Source: a virus
Direction: 5' to 3' (one strand)
Length of the DNA stretch: 64,000 bases
IMG/VR virus record: IMGVR_UViG_3300043411_000942
Span: 62,001-126,000 of that record
In this document: piece after piece, positions 17 to 63,118 of the stretch
Layout: each line of letters opens with the position of its first letter
How positions within the stretch are numbered: position 1 is the first letter of the stretch
Notes under the pieces: model-generated
The model's input: the letters and a program-made list of their open reading frames with translations, nothing else
Told to the model about the DNA's origin: nothing
Database searches by the model: none
Made by a program: the position numbers and the translations under genes

Positions 17-277
17 GTGATCTTCGAGCCAGGCTACTACTGGATCAAAGGTCATGGTGTCTGTAAGTACTCCCATGCCACTGGAGGGCTAGCTTACAAC
101 ACTGGGGAGCCTACTCACGTTGTGAACCCCTACCAGTTCGATTCAAACAAATTTGAAGGGAACCTCTACATCGAAACTTCGGACATCACCAGACCAGCGT
201 CTGAAAAAGAAGCCAAGTCGTACAAGGCAGCAGTTCGGAGAAAGCTCACGTCTTCAGGCGTGAAAAGAAAAAACTAG
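17..277 (+). CDS. Hypothetical protein, 86 aa, possibly 5'-incomplete
   Basis: The reading frame starts at a GTG (MIFEPGYYWIKG) but stays open to the left edge of the window, so the true start may lie outside. The protein is rich in Tyr, Gly and Asn up front and ends in a basic tail. The stop codon TAG overlaps the -35 of the promoter driving the next gene. No family recognised. Confidence 0.6.
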   Translation: MIFEPGYYWIKGHGVCKYSHATGGLAYNTGEPTHVVNPYQFDSNKFEGNLYIETSDITRPASEKEAKSYKAAVRRKLTSSGVKRKN

Positions 278-305
278 TTAAGGCCGTTACCCCAAAGGAC
301 GTAGG
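277..305 (+). promoter_or_regulatory. ECF-like phage promoter, copy 1
   Basis: GTTAAG at 277-282, 16-base spacer, ACGTAGG at 299-305, then 7 bases to the ATG at 313. It matches the consensus seen 39 times in the window (-35 GTTAAR, -10 NCGTANG). Confidence 0.8.
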
Positions 306-312
306 TCTCTAC

Positions 313-426
313 ATGAACTACGATGACTGGAAAGCGACGGACCCCCGAGACACTGACCGCGACTATGACCTCGAAGGAGAGGAAGACCACTTCGAGATCG
401 AAAAAGACTACTCTGGTGAAGACTGA
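313..426 (+). CDS. Small acidic hypothetical protein, 37 aa
   Basis: A 37-codon ORF (starts MNYDDWKATD) begins exactly 7 bases after a promoter copy. About one third of residues are Asp or Glu, and it ends in SGED. Its size is below most gene-calling limits; the promoter spacing is the main support. Function unknown. A small acidic phage protein could be an inhibitor or DNA mimic, but nothing in the sequence shows that. Confidence 0.6.
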   Translation: MNYDDWKATDPRDTDRDYDLEGEEDHFEIEKDYSGED

Positions 427-452
427 TTCCGTGTGACCGTGTACTCCTGGGA

Positions 453-535
453 TACCCAACAGGTGACGGCTCTGCCTTAGGGAGCGTTAACAACGTCTAT
501 TCAACCAACCCGGCACGGGTGTAGAGTATTGGGTA
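453..535 (+). other. Candidate structured RNA 1
   Basis: TACCCAA at 453-459 is the exact complement of TTGGGTA at 529-535, enclosing small hairpins (GCTC/GAGC and CCC/GGG pairs). The strand of transcription is not known. Confidence 0.3.
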
Positions 536-572
536 AGTGCTGACACCTCGGAAAGACGGGGAAATTTCTTAA

Positions 573-640
573 CTCCTACTGGCGAGACACGTTAAGTGTC
601 GGGACACATGTGAACTAGAGTCACAGAACCAACGTAGGAG
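573..640 (+). other. Candidate structured RNA 2
   Basis: CTCCTAC at 573-579 pairs with GTAGGAG at 634-640. The interior holds GACAC-GTTAA-GTGTC and GTGA/TCAC hairpins. The 3' side, GTAGGAGCTGTAGT, recurs with one change at 20928-20941. Confidence 0.3.
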
Positions 641-756
641 CTGTAGTCAACCTAGCAAGTCAAAACGTAGACTCCGGAAGGTAGCCAACCCTCTTCGGAC
701 GAGTCAGACCCAAGTAGGATGGCGAAGGGTAAAGCCGAGAGGCGAGCAAAACCCAT

Positions 757-789
757 GCCCCGAATTTGCTGCGGGGCGCTTTTCTTACT
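757..789 (+). terminator. Rho-independent terminator
   Basis: GCCCCG at 757-762 pairs with CGGGGC at 772-777 across a 9-base loop and is followed by a T-rich tract (GCTTTTCTT). Confidence 0.5.
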
Positions 790-868
790 TTGAGAGTTGA
801 AATGCACATCCGTGACTGGGTTGCCGTAACCTGAGGGTCTCATCCTTCCTCTAGCCTCGGCAATTCGG

Positions 869-970
869 AGCACACCCACAGGCCTGATGAACCTGGACGG
901 TTCGGTTCAAACCCGTGTGTAATGGGACACTAGCTCCCACGTCATGTGCTAGGGTTACGGGTGTGCTTTT
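869..970 (+). other. Candidate structured RNA 3
   Basis: AGCACACCC at 869-877 is a perfect complement of GGGTGTGCT at 959-967, followed by TTTT. The interior can form three arms: CAGG/CCTG, ACGG/CCGT and CTAGC/GCTAG. This gives a cloverleaf-like outline, but no anticodon or T-loop fits a tRNA. Confidence 0.4.
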
Positions 971-1005
971 CAACTTTCCAAGTAACTACAAGCACTTTTC
1001 TTCTT

Positions 1006-1112
1006 CATAGGTCTGGAAGCCAAGCGGTCTAGTTTGAGGAGACTGATCCTCTCTGTGAACTAGGACGTGGGGTCAACGCACGGGAAAACCTAGCCCTGCT
1101 TCCAGACCTATG
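1006..1112 (+). other. Candidate structured RNA 4, closed by a 15-bp perfect stem
   Basis: Bases 1006-1020 (CATAGGTCTGGAAGC) are perfectly complementary to 1098-1112, with 77 bases between. Inside, CTAGTT/AACTAG encloses GAGGA/TCCTC, and CGTG/CACG forms another arm. A perfect 15-bp closing stem around nested arms is unlikely by chance and suggests a stable RNA. Confidence 0.5.
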
Positions 1113-1372: not shown

Positions 1373-1401
1373 GTTAAAGACACCTCCAAGCCGTACGTAG
1401 G
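1373..1401 (+). promoter_or_regulatory. ECF-like phage promoter, copy 2
   Basis: GTTAAA 1373-1378, 16-base spacer, ACGTAGG 1395-1401, 7 bases to ATG 1409. Confidence 0.8.
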
Positions 1402-1701: not shown

Positions 1702-1730
1702 GTTAAACTTCCTAGACAACTCTTCGTAGG
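1702..1730 (+). promoter_or_regulatory. ECF-like phage promoter, copy 3
   Basis: GTTAAA 1702-1707, 16-base spacer, TCGTAGG 1724-1730, 7 bases to ATG 1738. Confidence 0.8.
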
Positions 1731-2019: not shown

Positions 2020-2048
2020 GTTAACTCGAACCTCACTCATTACGTAGG
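2020..2048 (+). promoter_or_regulatory. ECF-like phage promoter, copy 4
   Basis: GTTAAC 2020-2025, 16-base spacer, ACGTAGG 2042-2048. There is no ATG at the usual distance; the next is 2073. Confidence 0.7.
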
Positions 2049-3170: not shown

Positions 3171-3199
3171 GTTAAGAGCCACTCTCAAGAAAACGTAGG
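3171..3199 (+). promoter_or_regulatory. ECF-like phage promoter, copy 5
   Basis: GTTAAG 3171-3176, 16-base spacer, ACGTAGG 3193-3199, 7 bases to ATG 3207. Confidence 0.8.
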
Positions 3200-4132: not shown

Positions 4133-4359
4133 ACCAAGTTATGTATAGGAGCCTCAGAGGTCGTCTATGTGAGGCACAGAAAGAAGTTAAAGCGCTGAAG
4201 GCGGAGCTTCTGGCCCTACGGGAGGTAGTATGGGAGGTCGTAAACGACATGGCTCCCTCCGAGGCCTATGTCTACTACACTCCGCAGAGGGAAGCCCTTC
4301 GGGCCGCTCTCGTCAAGGCACCTAAGTCCACTGACCCAGCAAATAATAACGCAGGTTAG
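4129..4359 (+). CDS. Small coiled-coil protein
   Basis: Begins at GTG in a GTGA overlap with the DUF262 gene (an ATG at 4141 is the alternative). LCEAQKEVKALKAELLALRE is a clear heptad coiled coil. The stop TAG touches the next -35. Confidence 0.6.
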   Translation: MNQVMYRSLRGRLCEAQKEVKALKAELLALREVVWEVVNDMAPSEAYVYYTPQREALRAALVKAPKSTDPANNNAG

Positions 4360-4387
4360 TTAAGTCTCCACTCGCTAGTTACGTAGG
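4359..4387 (+). promoter_or_regulatory. ECF-like phage promoter, copy 6
   Basis: GTTAAG 4359-4364, 16-base spacer, ACGTAGG 4381-4387, 7 bases to ATG 4395. The -35 begins at the last base of the upstream stop codon. Confidence 0.8.
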
Positions 4388-5195: not shown

Positions 5196-5224
5196 GTTAA
5201 GTCTAACCCTCAGACCTACGTAGG
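5196..5224 (+). promoter_or_regulatory. ECF-like phage promoter, copy 7
   Basis: GTTAAG 5196-5201, 16-base spacer, ACGTAGG 5218-5224, 7 bases to ATG 5232. Confidence 0.8.
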
Positions 5225-5903: not shown

Positions 5904-6108
5904 TCGGATAGACGCCCTCGCTGCCTACCTCTCGCGTATCCAAGAGATTCGCGAGAGGCGGGAAGAGTACAAGAGAACTGCTATCGCTCTCTCCAAAGAG
6001 CACTGCCCGGTGTACTACATGGAGAGGGAATGCTCTGACTGTGCCCTCAACATAAGACTTGCGGTAATGACTCGTGTCCGTAAAGACACTGGGTCTACCT
6101 GCCCCTAA
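5893..6108 (+). CDS. Hypothetical protein with Cys cluster, 71 aa
   Basis: The frame is open from 5827; ATG 5893 (MLNDRIDALAAYL) is chosen because it gives a small overlap with the previous stop. A coiled-coil-like helix is followed by CPVYYMERECSDC, with a further Cys near the end. Confidence 0.6.
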   Translation: MLNDRIDALAAYLSRIQEIRERREEYKRTAIALSKEHCPVYYMERECSDCALNIRLAVMTRVRKDTGSTCP

Positions 6109-6124
6109 ATCCACATCAGGATCC

Positions 6125-6832
6125 ATGTTCACCATTGAGAAGACTGAGCCTAGTGTGCGGTACCGATTGCTCTTGGTACCCATCGAACAAATTTCGCCGT
6201 CTATGTACAGAAAGGACCGGCTACATGTTACCACCTCTGTGGCTCAGTATGCTACGCGTGAGGACATAGTTGCGCTGATACCTGAGGACCGAATCAGCCC
6301 AACAAGCCCTCCGTCACCCGAATGGCACGCATGGCATCAGACCCAGATGGCGATCGATTACCACCGTCGAGTTGACGAGCCTGGATCGGATACCGTACGC
6401 CGCCTAGCGAGGGAGCGAGATACAGCTAACGTTGAGGTGAAGGCTCTGAAGGCAGAGGTGAAGGCTCTGAAGGCAGATCTTGAGCGTCAGCAAAGTGATG
6501 CTAAGCTTTGCATCGAAGACCTGGAAAGGTCACTCGATTTCCAGACTAAACGTTGCGAGTGGCAAAGGTCAGAGATGGGGGTCCTAGAGGACCGGGCGGC
6601 AAAGGCCGAGCGGCAATGCGTAGATCGCATTGCCGCTATTCGACAAGAACAATGCCTTTTGACGAAGGCTGTCTCATTGAAGGTGGCCCTAGATATCGCA
6701 CCTTGCTCTGAAAATCCATATTGTTGGAGGATTCTCTACAACAATAAAGGGACGCACGGTATTTCAGCAGGTGACCCCTCCGAGGTCCACAGTAAAGTGG
6801 CTTCAATCCTAGCTAGATTCGAAAACAGTTAA
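6125..6832 (+). CDS. Coiled-coil protein, about 235 aa
   Basis: ATG 6125 follows AGGA; a GTG at 6074 is the alternative. The centre (about residues 100-195) is a long coiled coil containing a perfect 21-base tandem duplication, encoding EVKALKA twice, at 6434-6475. The C-terminal 45 residues look globular (NPYCWRILYNNKG). The stop TAA lies inside the next GTTAAA. Confidence 0.65.
   Translation: MFTIEKTEPSVRYRLLLVPIEQISPSMYRKDRLHVTTSVAQYATREDIVALIPEDRISPTSPPSPEWHAWHQTQMAIDYHRRVDEPGSDTVRRLARERDTANVEVKALKAEVKALKADLERQQSDAKLCIEDLERSLDFQTKRCEWQRSEMGVLEDRAAKAERQCVDRIAAIRQEQCLLTKAVSLKVALDIAPCSENPYCWRILYNNKGTHGISAGDPSEVHSKVASILARFENS
6434..6475 (+). repeat. Two perfect 21-base tandem repeats in a coiled coil
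   Basis: Two identical 21-base units (6434-6454, 6455-6475), each exactly seven codons, add one heptad to the coiled coil without breaking frame. Confidence 0.9.
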
Positions 6833-6856
6833 ACCTCCACCACCCAGTTACGTAGG
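6828..6856 (+). promoter_or_regulatory. ECF-like phage promoter, copy 8
   Basis: GTTAAA 6828-6833, 16-base spacer, ACGTAGG 6850-6856, 7 bases to ATG 6864. TAA 6830-6832 is the upstream stop. Confidence 0.85.
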
Positions 6857-7235: not shown

Positions 7236-7436
7236 ATGAGTAAAGTGAGGCAATACGTAACCACGGGAGCCAGTTTATACGATACGGACGATCGAGGGTA
7301 TAGGGTGTACCTAGAGCCAAGGATGGTACCCGACCCCGTTCCTCCTGACTTTACTGACACCTGGGATCTAAAGTCGTCCATTGAGTATGACGGCAACGTT
7401 CTTTGGTTTTGGCAAAGGGATGTGGAGTCCAGTTAA
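7236..7436 (+). CDS. Hypothetical protein, 66 aa
   Basis: ATG 7236 follows GGAGG at 7217-7221, a longer gap than usual. Contains PDPVPPDFTDTWDL and LWFWQRD. Its TAA stop lies in the next -35. Confidence 0.6.
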   Translation: MSKVRQYVTTGASLYDTDDRGYRVYLEPRMVPDPVPPDFTDTWDLKSSIEYDGNVLWFWQRDVESS

Positions 7437-7460
7437 ACTTCCCCCTCCCATACCCGTAGG
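7432..7460 (+). promoter_or_regulatory. ECF-like phage promoter, copy 9
   Basis: GTTAAA 7432-7437, 16-base spacer, CCGTAGG 7454-7460, 7 bases to ATG 7468. TAA 7434-7436 is the upstream stop. Confidence 0.85.
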
Positions 7461-8995: not shown

Positions 8996-9023
8996 GTTAA
9001 ACTTCCAGCTTGGGCTACGTAGG
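8996..9023 (+). promoter_or_regulatory. ECF-like phage promoter, copy 10
   Basis: GTTAAA 8996-9001, 15-base spacer, ACGTAGG 9017-9023, 7 bases to ATG 9031. Confidence 0.8.
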
Positions 9024-9530: not shown

Positions 9531-10088
9531 ATGCTCCCCCCTACCGTTTTATACTACTCACGCTTTCTGCGAGAACCCGGCCCGGTCTTTGACGCGCTCC
9601 GGGTTGCTTCGGCTTGGGAGCAGAAGAGCGTCACAATCTATGGGAAGTCGATTCCGCAGCCTCGCTTGATCGCGTGGTACGGGGACCCTGGTACCTCGTA
9701 CACCTACTCGGGGCTCAGAGTAGACCCCAACCCCTGGTTCCCTGCCCTGGCCTCTCTGAAGGCTGAGGTTGAGCGAGCTACGGGAGCCACCTTCAACTCG
9801 GTACTTCTTAACCTGTACCGTAACGGGTCGGATTCCGTAGCCTGGCATGCAGATGATGAGCCAGAACTTGGCTCGAATCCTACGATCGCCTCGGTAAGTC
9901 TTGGAGCTACACGTAAGTTTCAGCTCAAGCACAACCTTACCAAGGAGGTTTTCAGTGTAGACCTAACCTCAGGTAGTCTTCTCGTGATGTCTGGGAGCAC
10001 CCAGGAGACTTACAAACACGCGGTTTTGAAGACGACACGTCCTGTTGGAGAAAGGATCAACCTGACGTTTAGGCGAATTTTCAGTTAA
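9531..10088 (+). CDS. alkB-like: AlkB-like 2-oxoglutarate/Fe(II) dioxygenase
   Basis: 185 aa, close to the length of ALKBH2/3-type proteins. The Fe(II) ligands are H106 and D108 in WHADDEPELG and H163 in YKHAVLK. R175 and R181 in GERINLTFR match the 2-oxoglutarate-binding RxNxTFR signature, and LNLYRNGSDSVAWH matches the family's N.Y.dG.d.i.WH. Such enzymes remove alkyl groups from nucleic-acid bases. In a phage it could repair or edit phage nucleic acid. The TAA stop lies in promoter copy 11. Confidence 0.9.
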   Translation: MLPPTVLYYSRFLREPGPVFDALRVASAWEQKSVTIYGKSIPQPRLIAWYGDPGTSYTYSGLRVDPNPWFPALASLKAEVERATGATFNSVLLNLYRNGSDSVAWHADDEPELGSNPTIASVSLGATRKFQLKHNLTKEVFSVDLTSGSLLVMSGSTQETYKHAVLKTTRPVGERINLTFRRIFS

Positions 10089-10112
10089 GCCTCCCGCAAG
10101 GGGATCCGTAGG
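10084..10112 (+). promoter_or_regulatory. ECF-like phage promoter, copy 11
   Basis: GTTAAG 10084-10089, 16-base spacer, CCGTAGG 10106-10112. The gap to ATG 10133 is 20 bases and contains its own GAGG ribosome site. TAA 10086-10088 is the AlkB stop. Confidence 0.75.
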
Positions 10113-10352: not shown

Positions 10353-10425
10353 GGGACCTTAGCTCAGTTGGTAGAGCTGCGGACTTTTAATCCGTAGGTC
10401 GTGGGTTCAAGTCCCACAGGTCCCA
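10353..10425 (+). tRNA. tRNA-Lys(TTT)
   Basis: Complete cloverleaf: acceptor GGGACCT/AGGTCCC, D-arm GCTC/GAGC, anticodon stem GCGGA/TCCGT with loop CTTTTAA (anticodon TTT), T-arm GTGGG-TTCAAGT-CCCAC, discriminator A. CCA is not encoded, so the CCA-adding enzyme at 42648-43880 or the host must add it. Lys-TTT is a common target of host anticodon nucleases, fitting the RNA-repair genes nearby. Confidence 0.97.
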
Positions 10426-10580
10426 CTAACTGGATACTGTCTTAGCGAAGGTGTGCACCCTGAGCTATGATCGGACTCCAGCGAGGAGCTACCCGTTCCC
10501 ACGTAGATAGAGTGAGTCGCCCATCCCCCACTGGACTTGTTAAGCCCAACCGGATGGTCAACGACCCACTTAAACGGTAG
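10426..10580 (+). other. Non-coding stretch after tRNA-Lys
   Basis: No ORF. Contains an inverted repeat CCATCC/GGATGG around position 10550 and ends in a strong terminator. Possibly the tRNA precursor's 3' trailer or another structured RNA. Confidence 0.4.
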
Positions 10581-10651: not shown

Positions 10652-10834
10652 GTGTCTAACGTAAACGAGGTTACTGGTACTGACCATGACGGGCTGTGTG
10701 AGGAATGCGACACAACCTTGACGCACGAGAATCTCATTGAGAGCAGACTGGGTTTCTACTGTTCCGAGACATGCAAGGCTACGGCAGAGGACTACCCATA
10801 CGCCCCTTACCGCGAGGACTTCCACGCAGATTGA
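10652..10834 (+). CDS. Small zinc-ribbon protein, 60 aa
   Basis: The frame is open back through the terminator to 10595; GTG 10652 after GGAGG is preferred. CEECDTTL about residue 15 and CSETC about residue 36 form a treble-clef or zinc-ribbon pair. It sits just upstream of the HNH gene. Confidence 0.6.
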   Translation: MSNVNEVTGTDHDGLCEECDTTLTHENLIESRLGFYCSETCKATAEDYPYAPYREDFHAD

Positions 10835-10841
10835 ATGCAGC

Positions 10842-11165
10842 ATGTCAAAAAAGAACGTGAGGCAGAAGTTCAGGGACTTGGTCTTCACTCGGGACAAGCA
10901 TGTTTGCCGGGTCTGTAGGGCCTTAGGTGAGCTAGATGCTCACCACATTACAGATCGCAACCTGATGCCGGGTGGGGGCTATGTGCCGGGGAACGGAATT
11001 TCCCTGTGCAAAGATTGTCACTTAAAGGCAGAGCATTTCCACTCAACAGGTGAGAGCTTGCCAGGGTTTTCTCCAGAGGACCTGTACCAACTAATCGGTT
11101 CAAGTTATGCCGAAGCTCTTGAAGCTTCGAGACTCCATGAGAGATTTAAGCACCTCTCTGGTTAA
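10842..11165 (+). CDS. HNH endonuclease
   Basis: 107 aa starting MSKKNVRQKF (the open frame extends to 10737 but overlaps the previous gene). DKHVCRVCRALGELDAHHI, then GNGISLCKDCHLKAEH, is the HNH core: two CxxC pairs and the HH metal/catalytic dyad. A free-standing HNH of this kind is typical of mobile homing endonucleases of phages. The TAA stop lies in promoter copy 12. Confidence 0.85.
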   Translation: MSKKNVRQKFRDLVFTRDKHVCRVCRALGELDAHHITDRNLMPGGGYVPGNGISLCKDCHLKAEHFHSTGESLPGFSPEDLYQLIGSSYAEALEASRLHERFKHLSG

Positions 11166-11188
11166 GCCGCACTAGCAGAATCCGTAAG
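11161..11188 (+). promoter_or_regulatory. ECF-like phage promoter, copy 12
   Basis: GTTAAG 11161-11166, 15-base spacer, CCGTAAG 11182-11188, 7 bases to ATG 11196. TAA 11163-11165 is the HNH stop. Confidence 0.8.
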
Positions 11189-11833: not shown

Positions 11834-11862
11834 GTTAAGCTCTCACCTTGAAGGTCCGTAGG
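11834..11862 (+). promoter_or_regulatory. ECF-like phage promoter, copy 13
   Basis: GTTAAG 11834-11839, 16-base spacer, CCGTAGG 11856-11862, 7 bases to the micro-ORF ATG 11870. Confidence 0.8.
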
Positions 11863-12128: not shown

Positions 12129-12157
12129 GTTAAGGACCCCTTCAACCCCTACGTAGA
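12129..12157 (+). promoter_or_regulatory. ECF-like phage promoter, copy 14
   Basis: GTTAAG 12129-12134, 16-base spacer, ACGTAGA 12151-12157, 7 bases to ATG 12165. Confidence 0.75.
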
Positions 12158-13752: not shown

Positions 13753-13781
13753 GTTAAGGCTTACAGGACTAGTTACGTAGG
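13753..13781 (+). promoter_or_regulatory. ECF-like phage promoter, copy 15
   Basis: GTTAAG 13753-13758, 16-base spacer, ACGTAGG 13775-13781, 7 bases to ATG 13789. Confidence 0.8.
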
Positions 13782-13974: not shown

Positions 13975-14063
13975 AAGACACTTACAAGGATAGTTGGAAC
14001 ACGTCCTTCCGACTGCTCGTGCAACAAGAAGGCGTTGTACGAGGAGAAGAAGATTTAGGTTAA
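13971..14063 (+). CDS. Small protein, 30 aa
   Basis: GTG in a GTGA overlap opens MKDTYKDSWNTSFRLLV and runs to the TAA inside the next GTTAAG. Both junctions fit the local gene grammar. Function unknown. Confidence 0.5.
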   Translation: MKDTYKDSWNTSFRLLVQQEGVVRGEEDLG

Positions 14064-14087
14064 GACTGAACCCTCCTCCACCGTAGG
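14059..14087 (+). promoter_or_regulatory. ECF-like phage promoter, copy 16
   Basis: GTTAAG 14059-14064, 16-base spacer, CCGTAGG 14081-14087, 7 bases to ATG 14095. TAA 14061-14063 is the upstream stop. Confidence 0.8.
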
Positions 14088-15699: not shown

Positions 15700-15728
15700 G
15701 TTAAGCCCGGACCCTCTACCTACGTAGG
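15700..15728 (+). promoter_or_regulatory. ECF-like phage promoter, copy 17
   Basis: GTTAAG 15700-15705, 16-base spacer, ACGTAGG 15722-15728, only 5 bases to ATG 15734. Confidence 0.75.
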
Positions 15729-17470: not shown

Positions 17471-17520
17471 TATCGGTATGCCTCAAGACTCAGCTTTCAA
17501 TAGGGTTGTACGAGTGGACC

Positions 17521-21260: not shown

Positions 21261-21266
21261 TACGCT

Positions 21267-46544: not shown

Positions 46545-46548
46545 AGAG

Positions 46549-47505
46549 ATGCTCCATCCTAACCCTAAGATGCTGTTACGCATAGCCCAAGGTGACGCCT
46601 TTGGTATGGCGTGTGAATTTCGAACCGACAACCTGAAGGCAGCGTTGGAGTTCGATCGGTATATCCGTCATCCTGAGTGGGGTCCGGAAGCAGGTCATTA
46701 CACCGATGACACTCAGATGTCTATCGCAGTAGCCGAGAGCCTTATCCACCCACAAGGCCGTCGTCCTCCGAAATACGCACGCCCTGAAGACCTAACAAAA
46801 GAGGCTTTTGCTGAGGCCTTCGTCCAAGCATACAAGAGAGACCCACGACCTGGGTATGCGGTAAAGTTCCAGGCCTTCCTAGACTCAGTAAGCTCTGGTG
46901 CCGAATTCCTCTTGAAGATAAACCCGGAGTCAGATAAGAACGGTGCCGCAATGCGCTCCGTTCCGCTTGGCGTTATCTTACACGAACCCAATCTACTAGA
47001 GGTAGCTGCAACGCAAGCGAGCCTGACTCACAACACAGAGGGAGGTATTACCTCTTCTCAGATGGTAGCCCTTGCATCTAGGTTCGCCTTGTACGAGAGT
47101 GCTCCACTCACGGAGATTTTCGATTACATTGGAGACTGGCTACACCTGAGCAACCTACGGTGGGAGGGCGGTCCTGTAGTAGGACCTAACCTGGGGATGC
47201 TCACTGCAAGGGCAGCTATTACCCTAGTAATTGGTGAACCTAACTTACTGAGTATTGCAAAGAAGGCTCTTATCTGGGGTGGAGACACTGACTCTGTGCT
47301 AGCTATCGCCTGGGGTATTGCTAGTGCTCGAAAGGACGGAGCGGAGCTTCCCGACTTCTTCCATAGAGACCTAGAGAACGGACCTTACGGTCGAGACTAC
47401 CTAGCAGGGTTAGGTAGAGCCTTGATGGGTTACTTTGCTCCACCTGGGTTTGCTGCTGAGTTTGTTGTAAGCAAGAACGCGGTCTTGCCCCTCAAGAAGG
47501 ACTGA
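46549..47505 (+). CDS. ADP-ribosylglycohydrolase family protein
   Basis: 318 aa from ATG 46549. RIAQGDAFGMACEF, GHYTDDTQMSIAVAESLI (about residues 49-66, with the TDDT metal site) and IWGGDTDSVLAIAWGIASA near residue 248 (second metal DxD) define the family, which removes ADP-ribose from proteins or nucleic acids, or cleaves ADP-ribose derivatives. In a phage it could reverse host ADP-ribosyltransferase defences. Divergent from the gene at 46544 with 4 bases between starts. Confidence 0.85.
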   Translation: MLHPNPKMLLRIAQGDAFGMACEFRTDNLKAALEFDRYIRHPEWGPEAGHYTDDTQMSIAVAESLIHPQGRRPPKYARPEDLTKEAFAEAFVQAYKRDPRPGYAVKFQAFLDSVSSGAEFLLKINPESDKNGAAMRSVPLGVILHEPNLLEVAATQASLTHNTEGGITSSQMVALASRFALYESAPLTEIFDYIGDWLHLSNLRWEGGPVVGPNLGMLTARAAITLVIGEPNLLSIAKKALIWGGDTDSVLAIAWGIASARKDGAELPDFFHRDLENGPYGRDYLAGLGRALMGYFAPPGFAAEFVVSKNAVLPLKKD

Positions 47506-47506
47506 G

Positions 47507-48112
47507 ATGAGTATACTTACCGGTAGCAAGATCAAGAGTGAAGTTGAGGCTGGTAACATCCGTATTACCCCATACTCAGAGGACCAACTCAACCCAGCTA
47601 GCTATGACCTTACCCTTGGGGATGAGCTTAGGGTCTACAAGGATTGGGTAGGGTACAATGAGCACGCTAGCCCCCCAAGGGCTGGTCAGGACATGTTCCC
47701 TTGCGCCAAGGTGTGTGATGTCAAGCAAGAGCTTGAAACGGTAAGTTTCCAGATCCCACCTACGGGATGGGTACTAAGACCAGGTATCGGCTACCTCTTA
47801 CACACAGTAGAGCAAGTGTGGACACGGAATTACGTGCCAATTGTAGATGGGAAGTCTTCGATTGGTAGGCTATTTGTCCTCATCCACTTCACGGCTGGAT
47901 TCGGGGACCCAAACTTTGACGGCCAGTACACTCTAGAGGTGTCTGCTCTCCACCCAGTACGAATCTACCCAGGTATGCGTATAGGTCAGATTCGATTCCA
48001 TACGGTTGAGGGGGAGTTGGACCGACCGTATGAAGGTAACTACAAGGAGGGTACCGCGAGGGGAGCTGTAGCCTCAAGGTCGTGGAATCAATTCCCTAAG
48101 AAAGATGACTAA
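47507..48112 (+). CDS. dcd-like: dCTP deaminase / dUTPase-family protein
   Basis: 201 aa, typical dcd length. NPASYDLTLGDE (29-40) and VDGKSSIGRLFVLIHFTAGF about 112-131, followed by GDPNFDGQYTLE and GMRIGQIRF, match dCTP deaminase motifs, including the catalytic-site E of TLE and the KSSxxR nucleotide site. It would make dUMP/dUTP precursors for thymidylate. One base after the glycohydrolase stop. Confidence 0.85.
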   Translation: MSILTGSKIKSEVEAGNIRITPYSEDQLNPASYDLTLGDELRVYKDWVGYNEHASPPRAGQDMFPCAKVCDVKQELETVSFQIPPTGWVLRPGIGYLLHTVEQVWTRNYVPIVDGKSSIGRLFVLIHFTAGFGDPNFDGQYTLEVSALHPVRIYPGMRIGQIRFHTVEGELDRPYEGNYKEGTARGAVASRSWNQFPKKDD

Positions 48113-48635
48113 CATGCTCATGCCCAAGCGCTTGCCTATCCGATACTACCCAGATGCCATCCTCCACCAGAAGTGTGCACCCGTAACCGAGGTTACGGAG
48201 AGCGTGAAGCAGCTAGCTTCCGACATGCTTCTTACGATGATGCAGTGTCGAGGGCTGGGGTTGGCTGCACCTCAAGTTGGGGTGCCTATTCGACTTTTCG
48301 TTGTTGACGTAGAGTGGCCAGATGGCGTAGAGAACTCCACCTCCTACATATTCATCAACCCTACTTTGAGGTTGCTTGAACCCACTGTAAAGTCTGTCGA
48401 GGGCTGCATCTCGTTCCCAGGAGAACGATTTGAGCTGACTCGTGCAAGTCGCATCGAGGTTGACGCGCTAGACCTCGATGGTAAGCCCTTCACTCTCGAA
48501 GCAGAAGGGCTCCTTGCTGTAGCTATCCAACACGAGTACGACCACCTAGAGGGAAAGACTGGAGCGGAAAGTCTTTCCTGGCTAAAGCGGAACCTACTAC
48601 GTAAGAAGGTCGAGAAGCTTACGAAGCGTGGCTAA
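48105..48635 (+). CDS. def-like: Peptide deformylase
   Basis: 176 aa. The three motifs are complete: GLGLAAPQVG (50-59), EGCISFPG (99-106) and QHEYDHLEG (142-150; HExxH metal site with catalytic Glu). It removes formyl from nascent proteins. The C-terminal helix is short and basic. Overlaps the deaminase gene by 8 bases. Phage deformylases are known and may act on phage proteins. Confidence 0.92.
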   Translation: MTNMLMPKRLPIRYYPDAILHQKCAPVTEVTESVKQLASDMLLTMMQCRGLGLAAPQVGVPIRLFVVDVEWPDGVENSTSYIFINPTLRLLEPTVKSVEGCISFPGERFELTRASRIEVDALDLDGKPFTLEAEGLLAVAIQHEYDHLEGKTGAESLSWLKRNLLRKKVEKLTKRG

Positions 48636-54309: not shown

Positions 54310-55581
54310 TCAGTGACTGTCTGCCAAGAATCTACCCAAAACTCGCGCCTCAATCTGACTTGAGGCCACCTTTACAGCTCCAGGCATAGCCGTGTCGAGC
54401 CACCAGCGTACCTTCTCGTGGACCGCCCTAGGGCCGTAGGCTACGAGTAACCCAATCGCCTCGCAGAAGGCTTCCTCTGGATTCTTGTCGGCATAACCAG
54501 TGATAGGAGTCTTCGGAACTCGGATCTTACGCTCCCCCCTATCGTAGAGCTTTTGGAAGTCCTCCTTGGTGTTGAGGTGATCATCCTTTATCGACTCGAC
54601 TTGGAGCGCTAAGATAGGGTCAGAGTCTCCTAGGTACTTCGTGAAATCGAAGGACCAAGCGCCTTCAGGCCACTTATCCAATAACTCCTTGAGGTCAAGG
54701 TCCCCGTAGTCCCCTTTGATCGTCTGGTACCAAAAGTCCTGAGCCTCTTTGGCGAGGTAGGACTTCCAAATGTGGTGCCCCATCTCGTGTGCCATTACAT
54801 GAGCTACCCAAGAGGGTCCTTTGGATACCGAGGACATGTACAGGTTAATGTACCCCGCAGAGTTGTACTCGCCTCCCTTGTCTAAGGTAGACTTGAACTC
54901 ACACACTACCGGAAGTTGCTTCCTGAGGAGGATTGGAGCTACCATCCCTGCCCGCTTACGGTACAGACTCAAACCAGCCTTAAGAGTTTCAAGGTCTTGC
55001 TGGTTGTGCTCATCGTCTGGCTTAAAGCCATTCATGACAAGCTTGAAGCCCTCTATGGTGGCATTCTCTACAGTAGGAAGGTCGGTCTCCAAGTCACCGT
55101 GGACCCGCTGAAGGTACTCAATAACATCCTTCATCGCCTTCCAGAAGACTTGGGCTTTACGTTGCACCCTAACCTTCCATTGAGGGTACTCTCGCTCAAA
55201 GTTGACGAACCTAGCCCCCTCCGTGTAGTACTCGTCCTGATGCCCAACGGGGAGTCTCAGATCTGATGAGAATTCCCAAGCAACTGATCTCAACTTATCG
55301 TTGATATAGGAGGCGTGATTAGCTAGCTTGGGGTCCTCTTTCAGACTCTTGTTCAGGAACGCCTCGAAGAAGACCGCATCAAACCTATTCCGGTAGATTT
55401 GGAACGCCTGCTTGACGGTGTGGGCCGTCTTGTAGTCTTTTATCTTGGGGAGGTTCTTCAGGAGCGTGAGGAAGTCCTTTCGAAGGCCCTCTACCCAAGC
55501 CAAGTCCAACTTATGCGTAGCTGCAAACCGTACAACCACGTTTGAGGTAAGCGTATCCATCGTAGTGGAACTAAGCATCAA
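54310..55581 (-). CDS. HExxH metallopeptidase-like protein, 423 aa
   Basis: WVAHVMAHEMGHHIWKS holds HEMGH (265-269); KNPEEAFCEAIGLLVAYG near residue 370 supplies the third ligand. N-terminus has NVVVRFAATH and the C-terminus ARVLGRFLADSH, both of the R-V-x-x-R-[FY] type. ATG 55560 is an alternative start. Paralogous in plan to 52024-53757 but not closely similar. Confidence 0.75.
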   Translation of the reverse strand: MMLSSTTMDTLTSNVVVRFAATHKLDLAWVEGLRKDFLTLLKNLPKIKDYKTAHTVKQAFQIYRNRFDAVFFEAFLNKSLKEDPKLANHASYINDKLRSVAWEFSSDLRLPVGHQDEYYTEGARFVNFEREYPQWKVRVQRKAQVFWKAMKDVIEYLQRVHGDLETDLPTVENATIEGFKLVMNGFKPDDEHNQQDLETLKAGLSLYRKRAGMVAPILLRKQLPVVCEFKSTLDKGGEYNSAGYINLYMSSVSKGPSWVAHVMAHEMGHHIWKSYLAKEAQDFWYQTIKGDYGDLDLKELLDKWPEGAWSFDFTKYLGDSDPILALQVESIKDDHLNTKEDFQKLYDRGERKIRVPKTPITGYADKNPEEAFCEAIGLLVAYGPRAVHEKVRWWLDTAMPGAVKVASSQIEARVLGRFLADSH

Positions 55582-56039: not shown

Positions 56040-57122
56040 TTAACGTAGGAACATGGGAGGTGGTTTGGGGGCCTCACCCACCTGAGGTAGTTCCTGCTTT
56101 TCCCAACTATCAATCAGACCGTCGAGTAGTTTGATGTCCTTCTTCAAATCCGAGATAAGACCCGTGGTAGTTTGAATTCGATCCTTGACTCGGTCATCCC
56201 ACTCTCGCTGACCTAGGTCCTCAAGCGTTAGCTTTCTCCCCTGCGTTGTGTACAACACAAGTACCCTGCCAGCTTGGAGGTCACGTAGAGAAGACTCGGA
56301 GTCCCGCACGGAGTCATGCAAGACTTTCACAAGGTGCTGCGTGCCCTTAGGGCTCAGCTCAAACGGCTGGTAGCCAACACCAAGACACCTACCCTGCACT
56401 TGCCCCCAACCTGGACGCTCGTACCCGTGTAGGACGACCATGTAGTCATCCCCTTGACGTTTGAGCTTGATGTTCCGAAAGCAGCAAGGACACGTACCCG
56501 TGTTCTCACGAGTGCGAGGCTTTGACTCCTCACGCTCCCGCTCATACGTGCTCACTCCAAGTGCATTGGACACCTGAGTTAGGAAACTCGTACTCTCTCG
56601 CAACCACTTGCGAATCTCGTAGTATGGTATCTTCTTAGGATCCGAATACTGAACGTAGTAACTCCTACTTGGTAGTAGCTCAAAGACAGCGCCTTCAGGT
56701 GATGTAAATCGAAGCCCGTTTGCACCTACCCACTCAAGGAAGGAGTAGCCGGTTAGGTCGAAGTTAAAGCCCTCGGAGGTAGGAGCAGTTACATCCATCG
56801 TGTAATGCTTCATCGCTTGCGGGCTGGACGGTAGAGACCTTACCTCTAAGTCCTTAGTTAGCTCCCATCTTGCTTGAACCGTTAACGGATTAGAGTCGGT
56901 TTCCAGATTTGGAGCATTAGGATCTTGCGGGTACCCGTGTAGTTGAACCAAGCCGACGAAAGGCTCTACAGTCCAGCCTCCAAGGTACTGAAGAACTTCA
57001 AGTAGTTGCTTCATCGTAATGCTGGAGTCAGCTCCCTTACGGAGCTTGACAAGAAGCGCCTTTACCTTCTCCTCGCTAAGAGCGGCAGCGTAGCGGGAGA
57101 CTACATTTTCTATTAGAGCCAT
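56040..57122 (-). CDS. Phage protein with CPCC zinc site, 360 aa
   Basis: N-terminus MALIENVVSRYAAALSEE carries the V-V-x-R-Y motif. The centre holds GTCPCCFRNIKL about residues 211-222 followed by YMVVLHGYERPGWGQVQGRC, a module 'CP.C...iK......lHGy.RPG.G.v.G.C.G' I recognise from jumbo-phage proteins. The C-terminal third is helical. Function unknown; the shared N-terminal motif suggests a common destination with its neighbours. Confidence 0.7.
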   Translation of the reverse strand: MALIENVVSRYAAALSEEKVKALLVKLRKGADSSITMKQLLEVLQYLGGWTVEPFVGLVQLHGYPQDPNAPNLETDSNPLTVQARWELTKDLEVRSLPSSPQAMKHYTMDVTAPTSEGFNFDLTGYSFLEWVGANGLRFTSPEGAVFELLPSRSYYVQYSDPKKIPYYEIRKWLRESTSFLTQVSNALGVSTYEREREESKPRTRENTGTCPCCFRNIKLKRQGDDYMVVLHGYERPGWGQVQGRCLGVGYQPFELSPKGTQHLVKVLHDSVRDSESSLRDLQAGRVLVLYTTQGRKLTLEDLGQREWDDRVKDRIQTTTGLISDLKKDIKLLDGLIDSWEKQELPQVGEAPKPPPMFLR

Positions 57123-58457: not shown

Positions 58458-59282
58458 TTAGACTTCAGCTCTCTCGTTCTTGACGTCGAAGTGCTTGCGT
58501 AGTACCGACTTGATTTGGTCCTTGTACTTCAACCAAGCTGGGTGCGACATCGGGTTGTTCTTTAGGAACGGGATCATTTGGTCTCGAACAATCTCGGCGT
58601 CCGTATACCCCTGTAGGAGCAAGTCAAAGTAAAGGTCCAGGTCTGGAGTGACCCTGGGGTTTACCTTCCTAGCCAATTCATCTCGGATGTTGTCCAAGTC
58701 ACTCTCTAGAAGGTACTTGTCGAGGTGGTCCCAAGCCCCTGGGTCCTCAATGACCCTCTCAACGCCTTCCAGGTCCGTCATGGAATCCGTGATACTCTTG
58801 TCTTCATCCCCTCTGGTGTCATGCCTAAACTGGTCGATAGCTAGCATGTTGAGGGCCGTAAGGATATAGCTTTCTGCTCTCTTTAGAGGTTGACCTGATA
58901 GGTTCCGTAGGGAGTCAGGCTTAGCTAGAAACTTGAGCATTAGCTCCGTCATCAGGTCTTCTGCTCGGTTCGGATCGCGATGCTTCATGAGTAGCATCTT
59001 GTAAGCCTTCGAGCCAAAGTTGGCGCCGTAACCACTAGGGATCTTACGGTCCATCTCTCGTGCGTTCTGAGGCTTGAAGTTCTCAGCAGGTTGATCCTTG
59101 ATGGGTGGAAGTCCCTCCACCCCGTTCATCAAGAATAACCCGTAGATAACTCTCCCGAACCCAGCAGCGGGCCCAGCTGCTAGCTTCACTAGAAGGTTAG
59201 CCAGCCTATATCCCCATGGAAGGCTGGCATATACCTTACGACCTAACTCACTAGCGACTCTTACTAAGGCGTGTGTATCCAT
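58458..59282 (-). CDS. Sigma-factor-like protein with N-terminal RVA motif, 274 aa
   Basis: About residues 100-160 read as sigma region 2: RDPNRAEDLMTELMLKFLAK then AESYILTALNMLAIDQFRHD TR, with the 'AeDl.qe.....yl...l.N...D..R' pattern. The C-terminal part (LYFDLLLQGYTDAEIVRDQM) could be a weak region 4. N-terminus MDTHALVRVASELGRKVYAS has the RVA motif and a hydrophobic stretch. It may be a transcription factor carried in the virion (inference). Confidence 0.6.
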   Translation of the reverse strand: MDTHALVRVASELGRKVYASLPWGYRLANLLVKLAAGPAAGFGRVIYGLFLMNGVEGLPPIKDQPAENFKPQNAREMDRKIPSGYGANFGSKAYKMLLMKHRDPNRAEDLMTELMLKFLAKPDSLRNLSGQPLKRAESYILTALNMLAIDQFRHDTRGDEDKSITDSMTDLEGVERVIEDPGAWDHLDKYLLESDLDNIRDELARKVNPRVTPDLDLYFDLLLQGYTDAEIVRDQMIPFLKNNPMSHPAWLKYKDQIKSVLRKHFDVKNERAEV

Positions 59283-59308: not shown

Positions 59309-60472
59309 CTACATCCCCCGAGAGACCATCCGCTGAGTGCCCTTTACGGACAACCCAATGGTGGTTGCAATCTCATTGAGATTGCAACCTTCGCTGAGAA
59401 GCTTAAGGATCTCAGCCTCACGCTCCTGGTTCCCCTCCGCAGACCAGCCCAGAGCCTTGCGGCTAGACTTACCAGAGGCAATCAGCTTCACAGTTTGAGT
59501 AAGGTCCACAATGACCTCTTGCTGGCATCCATGAGGGTCGACGATAGCACTCTCCCATGAGACCTCTTCGCTACCCTCTCTTGGGGTGACAACAATCTCC
59601 TTGTGCCTACGAGACTTGGTTCGCAACCAGTTCACATAGATATTGAAGACAGCTCGGTACAAGTACTGCTTGAAGGTACCACGAGTCCTAGGAAGGTGAG
59701 GAGACCCAGAGGTATCGTAATCAACGACCTTCCGACCTTTGATTCGGAACTCCTCCCGAATCGCCTCGTACTTCTCAATGTCTGCCTTAGAGTAAGTAGC
59801 CTCAGAGGACATGCAATCCCCACTAATAGGAGATGGCGCCCACTGACCCTTTAACCTAGGGCAACAAAAGAGGCACAAGGTGTGCACTTCCGAGAGGGTA
59901 GGTTCAAGACTACTCACTTCCGCATTACCCGTACGGTACAAGTAGAAGTTTTGGAAACGAGAAACCACCCAAAAGACTTGACGGGTCTTAGGGATCCCGA
60001 ACTCCCGCTGAAGGTTCTCTCGTTCCTCCTCTTGAAGGTCCTTGGACATCAACCTAAGCTTGCTAGCATAGGAATTCATGTCGGTACCACAAGAAGAGCA
60101 TACTCCGTGGTCCCTACTCTCCACTTCCTCTAGAAGAGCCTTAGAGGGACGCTCTACCTTCAATCCCTTAGGAAAGACTCCCAAGACGTATCGGTATACC
60201 GCCATCTTGAAAGCACTTTCTTGCATCTTCAGGTAAGCAGCAGCTGAGGAAGCTGTCACAACCTCAGGCAACCTTACCGAGTAGGAGTTGTCATACTTCC
60301 TTAGGAAGTCGGCTTCAAACAACTTGAGCCAGACATGCTGGATGATATCCGCCGAGTTATCAGCTACCTTGTTAGCCTTTCGGATCGCACTACTCACAAA
60401 GGTGGAGTAATGCTTTACGAAGTCGTTGTTGTTCTTAGGTACGTAGTCTTCATCAGTCTTTTTAACAAGCAT
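59309..60472 (-). CDS. ECF-like sigma factor with zinc-binding insertion, 387 aa
   Basis: Promoter copy 37 sets the start at 60472 (MLVKKTDEDYVPKNN), removing a CA-repeat-encoded extension. Region 2: FVKHYSTFVSSAIRKANKVA ... SADIIQHVWLKLFEADF (about 18-56). An insertion with CSSCGTDM and LCLFCCPRLK (about 125-215) probably binds zinc. Region 2.3-like helix YLYRAVFNIYVNWLRTKSR later, and region 4 HTH EAEILKLLSEGCNLNEIATT IGLS near the C-terminus. It is the best candidate to recognise the GTTAAR-N16-CGTA promoters, including its own. Confidence 0.75.
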   Translation of the reverse strand: MLVKKTDEDYVPKNNNDFVKHYSTFVSSAIRKANKVADNSADIIQHVWLKLFEADFLRKYDNSYSVRLPEVVTASSAAAYLKMQESAFKMAVYRYVLGVFPKGLKVERPSKALLEEVESRDHGVCSSCGTDMNSYASKLRLMSKDLQEEERENLQREFGIPKTRQVFWVVSRFQNFYLYRTGNAEVSSLEPTLSEVHTLCLFCCPRLKGQWAPSPISGDCMSSEATYSKADIEKYEAIREEFRIKGRKVVDYDTSGSPHLPRTRGTFKQYLYRAVFNIYVNWLRTKSRRHKEIVVTPREGSEEVSWESAIVDPHGCQQEVIVDLTQTVKLIASGKSSRKALGWSAEGNQEREAEILKLLSEGCNLNEIATTIGLSVKGTQRMVSRGM

Positions 60473-60479: not shown

Positions 60480-60508
60480 CTTACGGAAGTTGGAGGTGAA
60501 CACTTAAC
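60480..60508 (-). promoter_or_regulatory. ECF-like phage promoter, copy 37 (sigma gene)
   Basis: Minus strand: GTTAAG (60508-60503), 16-base spacer, CCGTAAG (60486-60480), 7 bases to ATG 60472. Suggests autoregulation. Confidence 0.85.
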
Positions 60509-61451: not shown

Positions 61452-61729
61452 GTATAGGTAAGCTCACTGATGCGCTACCTCTTGCGATCTGGTTACCTCG
61501 TAGTAGCTACGATGTTTACCGGGGGAGCCCATCGGAGATCATCCAAGAACTTACTGGGAACAAGTCTACTTCCATGCGGCAAGCCATCAAGAAGGTCACG
61601 AAAAGTCTTGAGGTGACTCGTCGAGTGAAGCTGGAACTTCCCTGGGGTGAGTCCGATGACGTCCTTGCTACTCTTTTGGTTCACGCTATGCTTCAGTTGA
61701 AAATCAGTCAACCCGTACCATCCGCCTAA
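61439..61729 (+). CDS. Hypothetical protein, 96 aa
   Basis: Overlaps the previous gene by 13 bases. IWLPRSSYDVYRGSPSEIIQ ELTG, then basic helix and VLATLLVHAMLQLKI. No family recognised. Confidence 0.6.
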   Translation: MSDLSIGKLTDALPLAIWLPRSSYDVYRGSPSEIIQELTGNKSTSMRQAIKKVTKSLEVTRRVKLELPWGESDDVLATLLVHAMLQLKISQPVPSA

Positions 61730-61737
61730 GAGGCTTC

Positions 61738-61923
61738 ATGAAACTAGTCAATGCGATTGCTCTCTCCGTTGTTTTTCTTGCCTTGGTAGGTTCCTGCGTC
61801 GCAGGCGTCTACCTCAAGGTCCAGGGTAAACTTACTTGGGCTCCCTTTGGGATCTGGATGCTAACCGCAGGGTGCCTGCTTGCCATGGTTGGTTACATGA
61901 TTCGAGGGTTGAACCAAAAGTGA
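61738..61923 (+). CDS. Membrane protein, two spans, 61 aa
   Basis: MKLVNAIALSVVFLALVGSC and GIWMLTAGCLLAMVGYMI are hydrophobic, separated by a short loop, with a basic C-terminus. Last gene before a bidirectional terminator. A small holin-like size, but no lysis gene is adjacent. Confidence 0.65.
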   Translation: MKLVNAIALSVVFLALVGSCVAGVYLKVQGKLTWAPFGIWMLTAGCLLAMVGYMIRGLNQK

Positions 61924-61928
61924 TTGTT

Positions 61929-61965
61929 CGGTTGCCTCTACCTCCTAACTTGGTAGAGGCAACCG
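61929..61965. terminator. Bidirectional terminator
   Basis: CGGTTGCCTCTACC (61929-61942) pairs perfectly with GGTAGAGGCAACCG (61952-61965). It separates convergent genes (membrane protein and Ku). Confidence 0.85.
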
Positions 61966-61972
61966 ACAGAGC

Positions 61973-62749
61973 TTAGGTTCGGTTGACGGCAGCTTCGATG
62001 CTAGCTTTGAGTGCTGCAAGGAGGTCTGTCATAGGAGCCTGAGCCTTCACTGGGGTGTCGATAGCAAGACCTTCCTGCTTCTTGGCTACAGCCTCCTTCA
62101 CCCGTTTGGCGTAGTTGTCCTCGTACTTCTGAGGCTCGAAGGTCTTGGTAGCCAGAGCTTCCACGAGCATGCAAGCAACCTTCTCTTCTGCTTCCATCAC
62201 TTGAGCTTTGGCAGCAGGGACCTCCCCGAAGTCTCGCACTTCGTTGGCGTAGAACATTTGGTGCATCACCAGACCACCCTCGTAGGGGCGGACAAGCACC
62301 AAGTGCTCTCGCCCTCGGTTGGACCACTGAGCCACAGCGATCTTGCCTTGCTTCTTCATGACCTGACTAAGCAGGTAGTAAGACTTGTCACCACCCTTGT
62401 TGGGACCCAGGTAGTAGGACTTCTCGACCTGGAAGACGTTGAAGGCTTCTGCGGGGATAAACTCCTTTATCTCCATGCTGTTTGCGTTCTCGCTATCGAG
62501 AACAGACAGCTCTTCCTTGCTGAAGCGAACAAGGGTTCCGCCCTTCTCGACTTCGTAACCTCGCCCACATTCGGAGTACTCCACAGGGGCTCCCGTGATG
62601 GAGTCGGTATACTTCTGCTTCACCTTGTTGCCAGCAGGAGTGACCATGCACAGGCTTACGGTCTCTGCACTTGCAGAGAGGTAGATTTTGACCGGAACGG
62701 AAACCAGCCCGAAGGACAGGGTTGCACTAGCGATGGATCGAATGCTCAT
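61973..62749 (-). CDS. ku: Ku DNA-end-binding protein
   Basis: 258 aa, the length of bacterial Ku. Starts MSIRSIASATLSFGLVSVPV, the invariant 'w.g.lsFGLV.iPVk.y' beginning (R replaces W). Later VEYSECGRGYEVEKGG, FIPAEAFNVFQVEKSYYLGP and YEGGLVMHQMFYANEVRDF match the ring core. Bacterial Ku recruits LigD; no ligase D is in the window. Phage Ku proteins (for example in some mycobacteriophages) protect or circularise DNA ends. Confidence 0.95.
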   Translation of the reverse strand: MSIRSIASATLSFGLVSVPVKIYLSASAETVSLCMVTPAGNKVKQKYTDSITGAPVEYSECGRGYEVEKGGTLVRFSKEELSVLDSENANSMEIKEFIPAEAFNVFQVEKSYYLGPNKGGDKSYYLLSQVMKKQGKIAVAQWSNRGREHLVLVRPYEGGLVMHQMFYANEVRDFGEVPAAKAQVMEAEEKVACMLVEALATKTFEPQKYEDNYAKRVKEAVAKKQEGLAIDTPVKAQAPMTDLLAALKASIEAAVNRT

Positions 62750-62756
62750 ATTATCT

Positions 62757-62785
62757 CTTACGGAAAGGTTTAGGTTCGACTTAAC
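62757..62785 (-). promoter_or_regulatory. ECF-like phage promoter, copy 38 (ku)
   Basis: Minus strand: GTTAAG (62785-62780), 16-base spacer, CCGTAAG (62763-62757), 7 bases to ATG 62749. Its spacer resembles that of copy 39. Confidence 0.85.
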
Positions 62786-62806
62786 GTGAATCTGCGGAAC
62801 CCAGGG

Positions 62807-63082
62807 TCACAGGTCTTCACGGATACTTTTGCGATCCCAGTTGTACTTGACAGCAAGTACAACCGCCTCTTGTAGAAGCTCGGAGTTCTTGAGAGTGTTG
62901 TCCAACCCCAGAACCTGAGGTGGGCTAGAGACAAAGCAAAATGCCTCAATAGCCCTTTCGTAGGACTCCCATCGGTAACTCAGGCAGAGACAGTTGATGA
63001 TTTGAACAAGAAGCTTTCGACGCTCCTTGTTCCCACCCTCCGCGTTAACCCAGGCTACCCAAACGCCTTCCAAGTGACTCAT
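62807..63082 (-). CDS. Hypothetical protein, 91 aa
   Basis: MSHLEGVWVAWVNAEGGNKE, then Cys-containing helices (INCLCLSYRWESYERAIEAF). Its promoter is nearly identical to that of ku, so the two are probably co-expressed. Confidence 0.65.
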   Translation of the reverse strand: MSHLEGVWVAWVNAEGGNKERRKLLVQIINCLCLSYRWESYERAIEAFCFVSSPPQVLGLDNTLKNSELLQEAVVLAVKYNWDRKSIREDL

Positions 63083-63089
63083 AGAGTAC

Positions 63090-63118
63090 TATACGGAAAG
63101 ACCTAGGTTCGCCTTAAC
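63090..63118 (-). promoter_or_regulatory. ECF-like phage promoter, copy 39
   Basis: Minus strand: GTTAAG (63118-63113), 16-base spacer, CCGTATA (63096-63090), 7 bases to ATG 63082. Confidence 0.8.

Follow-up and report, generated by a model that had tools for sequence, protein, structure and literature searches.

What transcribes a huge tailed phage in which one two-block element stands before a large set of genes? The question is raised by a stretch of viral DNA of 64,000 nucleotides (positions 62,001-126,000 of the 232,937-bp virus record IMGVR_UViG_3300043411_000942; hereafter the window), in which a sequence-only reading had counted 39 copies of a GTTAAR/CGTANG element and likened them to promoters of extracytoplasmic function (ECF) sigma factors. 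The element is 29 bases long, is present in about 75 copies in this genome fragment and, judging from its sequence and placement, is almost certainly a promoter. Taken as a whole, the explanation that appears likely to us is that a phage-encoded ECF-like sigma factor, most likely the protein P0001 described below, directs the core RNA polymerase of the host to these sites. The element would then act as a bipartite sigma-dependent promoter, with GTTAAR as the -35 block and CGTARG as the -10 block, serving the non-structural and tRNA genes of the phage.

The element and its geometry

The record was scanned in stretches with a weight matrix trained on its 55 exact copies; the pattern read backwards has none. 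At a score of at least 13 bits the record holds 80 sites, against 3.4 per dinucleotide-keeping shuffle; at 16 bits or more the figures are 68 and 0.5, and at 21 bits or more 43 and 0. Within the window the exact pattern, GTTAARN14-17CGTANG, occurs 29 times. Copies there were taken as good at 10 bits or more, a cut-off reached by 42 matches, three of which lie inside genes and are due to chance (62936 on the plus strand, 57065 and 14545 on the minus strand). The remainder reproduces the earlier count of 39 copies between 277 and 63118, 20 on the plus and 19 on the minus strand, and also its spacers, which are 16 bases in 34 copies and 15 in five. The plus-strand copy at 37553 that had been called weak (GTTTAA-N17-CGTAGT) falls below the cut-off, yet an ATG that starts the open reading frame (ORF) 37589-37885 lies 7 bases downstream of it; with this copy the total is 40.

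Gene starts were taken from a simple home-made gene finder, and some of its start calls are uncertain. The possibility raised with the original count, that matches might be as frequent inside genes as before their starts, is not borne out: only three of the 80 sites (record positions 15672, 119065 and 230404) lie inside a predicted gene away from its start, which is about the shuffle expectation. Along the record the copies extend from about 3 kb up to 153 kb. Hardly any occur between 153 and 233 kb, where the genes for the portal, the head protease and an intein-containing terminase lie. A dyad search in the late region of this phage, denoted G000 (other G numbers are related records and L numbers individual stretches), found nothing clear. 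The earlier suggestion of one phage regulon is supported, except that the regulon is not confined to the segment and continues beyond the window.

The position of the start codon is highly constrained. Of the 80 sites, 50 have an ATG that begins 6-7 bases beyond CGTARG, where about 2.5 would be expected by chance, and the distance from the C of CGTA to the ATG is 13 bp in most sites, in keeping with the 10-13 bp between -10 block and start that are typical of leaderless genes. With CGTA as the -10 block, the A of the ATG falls at +1, so most messages are predicted to lack a leader; from the sequence, we regard this as very probable. Where no ATG stands exactly there, the eighth base is a purine in 28 of 37 sites. 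Transcription would begin 7-8 bases downstream of CGTARG at a purine, which in most units is the first letter of the start codon itself, while a minority of units would carry a short leader with a Shine-Dalgarno sequence or produce a tRNA precursor. At leadered sites, a Shine-Dalgarno sequence runs from the predicted start on and is followed by the ATG (AGGAGAGAGAAAAATG, AAGGAGACACACAATG, AAGAAAGGCCAGTGTTATG, AGAGGCACTGAAAATG). A Shine-Dalgarno 4-mer precedes 11 of the 50 leaderless-type starts, compared with 38% of other ATG genes and 15% of all ATGs. In many cases the upstream gene ends with a stop codon in or beside the -35 block, so that the promoter takes up the space between two adjacent genes. 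Start sites, translation without a leader and the timing class of these genes are predictions from this arrangement, as are the feedback and the pairing with a sigma factor discussed below.

The same geometry could be viewed as a translation signal, with TAGG 7 bases before the ATG acting as a weak Shine-Dalgarno sequence and the upstream block as a feature of the mRNA; CGTAGG-N7-ATG does have normal Shine-Dalgarno spacing. This is hardly credible, as the element also precedes tRNA genes. In an array of 45 tRNA genes and a transfer-messenger RNA (tmRNA) at 126-153 kb of the record (L012, L013), the predicted starts of four copies lie 5-25 nucleotides before the tRNAs at L012 1691, 3298, 6403 and 17614, and since tRNA genes need no ribosome-binding signal, these copies speak for a signal of transcription. 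Furthermore, the leadered sites have a separate Shine-Dalgarno sequence downstream, the blocks found at the same place in related phages (GTGTTC, CGTATT, CGTCT) do not resemble one, and the GTTAA at fixed distance would be left unexplained.

Two conserved blocks, a spacer of about 16-17 bp and a CGT-type -10 block constitute an ECF-type layout, which the sequence-only reading had recognised and which is backed by the enrichment before starts, the copies at tRNA genes, the start-site purine and the elements of the same layout in sister phages. The likeness to SigW-type promoters proposed at the same time holds for the spacing and the -10 block and fails for the -35 block, which is GTTAAR in place of an AAC core of the GGAAC type; the nearest to such a core among the relatives are GGAAAAA (G004) and GTGAATC (G007). 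That reading had overlooked the leaderless geometry, the extent of the regulon beyond the window, the restriction of the sequence to this phage, and the encoded ECF-like sigma factors, one of them directly behind a copy.

Candidate sigma factors, polymerase and related phages

Relatives were found through portal and terminase searches, with portal matches 44-80% identical and records of up to 512 kb. The nearest members of the phage collection, an uncultured 485-kb phage (50.8%), Tunturiibacter phage Tunturi_5 (38%) and Bacillus phage G (24%), serve as outgroups. P0001, the product of 59309-60472, appears to have a sigma region 2 in two parts, the first at residues 19-54 and the second (FKQYLYRAVFNIYVNWLRTKSRR), located by alignment and inspection, near 266-288. 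The insertion between them (residues ~75-260) contains CxxC pairs and is HNH-like, and an HNH domain is among the non-significant Foldseek hits; the homologues of G004, G007 and G010 lack these cysteines, so the insertion is a variable feature of the family. The C-terminal helix-turn-helix (HTH) gives only weak GerE and PHROG matches and no Sigma70_r4 match. Sigma70_r2 is matched by six of nine members of the P0001 family (best 1.6e-5), and P0002, the product of 58458-59282, matches a PHROG sigma family at 5.2e-5. With predicted structures of moderate confidence, ECF sigma factors head the PDB list for both proteins, at non-significant scores. The two are probably paralogues, because the P0002 profile matches a P0001 homologue (3.3e-7; by hhalign, E 3.4e-4 with a probability of only 38%).

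Homologues of P0001 occur in eight relatives and of P0002 in seven, as adjacent genes in a syntenic pair, and none was found in the three outgroups. A search with P0001 alone found no relative among the viral contigs, and searches with either protein found none in the phage collection. Across the relatives the sigma-2 parts are conserved while the C-terminal HTH is variable, which would fit a largely kept CGT-like -10 block and a changing -35 block. A V-x-R-[FYV]-A-like N-terminal stretch, seen by eye in P0002, in the products of 54310-55560 and 56040-57122 of the window and in that of L041:6327-7394, could be a targeting signature.

In G000 (22.1 bits), G003 (21.5 bits) and G004 (23.7 bits), the P0001 homologue is immediately preceded by a copy of that phage's own element; in G007, G010 and G011 no copy was found at this place. 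A sigma gene behind its own promoter would constitute positive feedback; the arrangement fits autoregulation and also a cascade that switches on a sigma factor for another class of genes.

The polymerase itself is likely to be the host core enzyme, since RNA_pol_Rpb2_6, the cellular-type beta subunit, has no match in eight records (this one and seven relatives, several of 400-512 kb), whereas the control genomes matched in 14 of 14 cases. One could instead suppose that what recognises the element is not a sigma factor but an RNA polymerase encoded by the phage, of either the multisubunit or the single-subunit kind. The jumbo phages AR9 and phiKZ encode their own polymerases (PMC5312081, PMC7598289), and part of the present genome is missing. 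This we consider very unlikely, given the absence of the beta subunit from these records, the sigma-like layout of two blocks with a 16-17 bp spacer, and an empty search for T7-type polymerases, though that search had no positive control. Considering the sequence evidence together, the element is probably read by a phage-encoded ECF-like sigma factor, with P0001 preferred to P0002; the paralogue may act with P0001 or instead of it.

The related phages differ in the element that they carry. The exact GTTAAR-N-CGTARG pattern occurs in 0-1 copies in each of 15 related records, and de novo dyad counts in stretches of seven relatives reveal a different bipartite element in five: GTTGAWTC/GTGTTC in G003 (39 sites against 3.5 in shuffles), CTTGAA/CGGTGTAGTA in G010 (39 against 3.75), CTTAA/CGTA in G011 (64 against 5.75), GGAAAAA/CGTCT in G004 (37 against 2.5) and GTGAATC/CGTAAG in G007 (13 against 0.5). 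In these five the ATG lies most often 12-16 nucleotides after the start of the CGT/GTGT/CGG core. When the six models are scanned against each other's genomes, each gives 12-63 matches per 100 kb in its own genome and no more than 2 in any other, so that they are nearly mutually exclusive. The sigma factor and its promoter would have drifted to other specificities in the sister phages.

In G006 and G014 no private bipartite element came to light, only the GGTGTA class described below. Several candidate elements were rejected: the TGGGA/GTAT dyad of G006 has no linkage to ATG, one G014 dyad resembles tRNA T-arms, and the highest-ranking dyads of G010 turned out to be palindromic repeats. The G010 stretches L104-L110 contain an abundant inverted-repeat-like unit, GAGGG-N12-CCTC, 51 times against 1.6 expected. 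When IMG/VR was scanned with the motif-plus-ATG pattern, 26 contigs matched, each only once, which is background. An alignment-based (A3) scan of the collection gave six loci, of which two (L150, L152) come from new contigs and add no information.

A different assignment keeps the same promoter and leaderless geometry and makes the reader an alternative or unusual primary sigma factor of the host, with each phage adapted to its host and the phage sigma factors serving another class, for example the late genes. The G+C content of the relatives' stretches ranges from 44 to 66%, so their hosts probably differ, and a copy before the sigma gene is also compatible with activation of a later sigma factor from this promoter. 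Phage G, a distant relative, has an ordinary TTTACA/TGATATAAT element. The other two outgroups have CTAAAAAG/CCGATAGG (the 485-kb phage) and TAATCAC/TGGGTATTA (Tunturi_5), and none of the three has an element with the ATG fixed at the predicted start. Host ECF sigma factors are usually scarce, and dozens of strong promoters of the same type depending on one of them would be unusual. In addition, the outgroups that lack the P0001/P0002 pair also lack an ECF-like leaderless element, a correlation drawn from few lineages. On this evidence a host sigma factor as reader is unlikely.

Several observations weigh against a reading by P0001. Its own Sigma70_r2 match is weak (E 0.044), and the Foldseek matches to ECF sigma factors are non-significant (best E 0.23 and 0.095). 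If the element leads about one fifth of genes, its presence before the sigma gene in three of six phages could, by our estimate, be a chance result at the ~10% level. Since only a fragment of the genome is at hand, the missing part may hold another sigma factor or a polymerase. The record also encodes two further sigma-region-4-like proteins, at ~143.4 kb and ~182.6 kb. The former (L012 ~17260-17550) is small and lies directly upstream of an element copy; the latter (L009:1369-1986) has 205 residues. Region-4 matches are present in 11 of the 12 records searched, phage G included.

Copies in the window, a second element class and other genes

The coordinates of the copies and of the candidate sigma genes are collected in Table 1. 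The opposite-strand copies within 37531-37581 overlap almost completely, as a putative divergent promoter pair within ~50 bp. The gene behind the copy at 62757 encodes a Ku70/80-type end-binding protein (61973-62749, minus strand; PF02735, 2.4e-34).

Table 1. Element copies and candidate sigma genes, in window positions; the ATG column gives nucleotides between the element and a downstream ATG.
Feature	Position	Strand	ATG	Remarks
Element copy	277-305	+	7	
Element copy	1373-1401	+	7	
Element copy	1702-1730	+	7	
Element copy (GTTAAC)	2020-2048	+		no ATG at predicted start
Element copy	3171-3199	+	7	
Element copy	4359-4387	+	7	
Element copy	5196-5224	+	7	
Element copy	6828-6856	+	7	-35 block holds stop of ORF 6074-6832
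Element copy	7432-7460	+	7	
Element copy	8996-9023	+	7	spacer 15
Element copy	10084-10112	+		short leader with Shine-Dalgarno (AGAGGCACTGAAAATG)
Element copy	11161-11188	+	7	spacer 15; -35 block holds stop of ORF 10737-11165
Element copy	11834-11862	+	7	
Element copy (CGTAGA)	12129-12157	+	7	
Element copy	13753-13781	+	7	
Element copy	14059-14087	+	7	
Element copy	15700-15728	+	5 and 23	
Element copy	18642-18669	+	7	spacer 15
Weak copy (GTTTAA/CGTAGT)	37553-37581	+	7	ATG at 37589; overlaps minus copy 37531-37559
Element copy	39895-39923	+	9	ORF 39933-40676
Element copy	45213-45241	+	7	
Element copy (CGTAGT)	20779-20807	-	7	
Element copy	21243-21271	-	4	
Element copy	21843-21871	-	7	
Weaker copy (CGTACT)	22871-22899	-	7	
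Element copy (GTTAAC)	24048-24075	-	6	spacer 15
Element copy	26502-26530	-		short leader with Shine-Dalgarno (AAGGAGACACACAATG)
Element copy (CTTAAA)	27663-27691	-	6	
Element copy	29930-29958	-	7	
Element copy	31173-31201	-	6	
Element copy	32617-32645	-		short leader with Shine-Dalgarno (AAGAAAGGCCAGTGTTATG)
Element copy (CTTAAG)	33684-33712	-	7	
Element copy	35123-35151	-	7	
Element copy	36455-36483	-	7	
Element copy	37531-37559	-	6	overlaps weak plus copy 37553
Element copy	44186-44213	-	9	spacer 15
Element copy (GTTAAC)	44844-44872	-		short leader with Shine-Dalgarno (GAAAGAGGTGTCCACATG)
Element copy	60480-60508	-	7	directly before ECF-like sigma gene 59309-60472
Element copy	62757-62785	-	7	before Ku gene
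Weaker copy (CGTATA)	63090-63118	-	7	
P0001, candidate ECF-like sigma	59309-60472	-		sigma region 2 split by zinc-finger/HNH-like insertion; C-terminal HTH
P0002, second sigma-region-2-like protein	58458-59282	-		directly downstream of P0001; probable paralogue

A second conserved sequence, YGGTGTA, lies 15-17 nucleotides before ATG and has no recognisable -35 block. In the window it is found at 14399(+), 17464(+), 38558(+), 44201(+), 45211(-), 34387(-) and 20601(-), and it is also present in G003, G004, G006, G007, G010, G011 and G014. At offset 16, G011 has 13 occurrences against a mean of 1.7 per offset; the corresponding figures for G006 are 11 and 2.3, and this phage (26-126 kb) has eight at offset 15 against 1.15. 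YGGTGTA may mark a further class of leaderless promoters, read by another sigma factor. As a tentative picture, which we hold to be somewhat doubtful, a clade of huge phages distantly akin to phage G may use two leaderless promoter classes with host RNA polymerase and two paralogous ECF-like sigma factors, one class evolving fast with a near-exclusive -35/-10 code and the other being the conserved YGGTGTA class.

The tmRNA of the array specifies the tag ANDNAYATPALAAA, and tRNA arrays similar to it occur in G003 and G006. The window itself contains one tRNA-Lys and a CCA-adding-enzyme-like gene (10353-10426 and 42648-43880, respectively). A predicted ORF at L014:14415-16286 joins a NusG-N/KOW match, just below the cut-off, to a 5'-3' exonuclease, and the intein of the terminase large subunit (L043:4390-7749) holds a LAGLIDADG domain. 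Further loci (L013:9129-10766, L013:15604-18486 and, on the plus strand of the window, 46516-47505 and 48105-48635) comprise a GroEL-like chaperonin and a peptide-deformylase-like protein, both recognised by eye only, a class II ribonucleotide reductase and an ADP-ribosylglycohydrolase-like protein.

Relation to known systems

Phage-encoded ECF sigma factors and leaderless phage messages are each already known. According to the parts of the literature consulted, ECF-group sigma factors occur in phiEco32/Kuravirus and in Privateer (PMC7881722); the phiEco32 protein binds E. coli RNA polymerase, and the phage subgroup has been termed an outlier (PMC7881722, citing others). In phage 7-11, promoters of the phage sigma factor also stand before the sigma gene (PMC4331800). 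As in these phages, a phage sigma factor is proposed here to redirect host RNA polymerase to phage promoters. From the same excerpts, phage 7-11 has about 10 promoter copies, of a different sequence, against ~75 here, and a leaderless geometry, predicted in the present case, is not reported for phiEco32, Privateer or 7-11. The present system also differs from these three in the apparently split sigma region 2 and in the promoter code that each relative has for itself.

The Thermus phage phiYS40 has leaderless middle and late messages (PMC3594737), and here too most messages of a gene class are predicted to lack a leader; unlike phiYS40, the phages described here are huge, are not known to infect Thermus, and have an ECF-like bipartite element and a sigma-like gene pair. 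Leaderless genes of bacteria, for example in Actinobacteria and Deinococcus-Thermus, are recognised in genomes by a -10 box that precedes the start codon by 10-12 bp (PMC3160421). The -10 block described here similarly keeps a constant distance of ~12 bp upstream of the start codon, but those boxes are sigma-70-like TANNNT with no private -35 block described, whereas CGTARG is accompanied by GTTAA at fixed distance. Group 2 jumbo phages have sigma factors and no polymerase of their own (PMC7824862), and recruitment of the host core polymerase by phage sigma factors is likewise proposed here; descriptions of the Group 2 sigma factors give them a minimal HTH form or an RpoD-like one, in contrast with an ECF-like pair of which one member has an apparently split region 2.

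The combination at this scale, together with replacement of the code between relatives, was not found in the portions of the literature searched. What appears new against this literature is how many copies one phage carries, the leaderless arrangement predicted for them and the replacement of the element by a nearly exclusive variant in each of several relatives. Gene starts in these phages can be called by rules that follow from the geometry of the element. The sets of the six phages are candidate orthogonal sigma-promoter pairs, and with six promoter codes that hardly cross-match, each beside homologous candidate sigma factors, the joint change of sigma and promoter specificity becomes directly testable.

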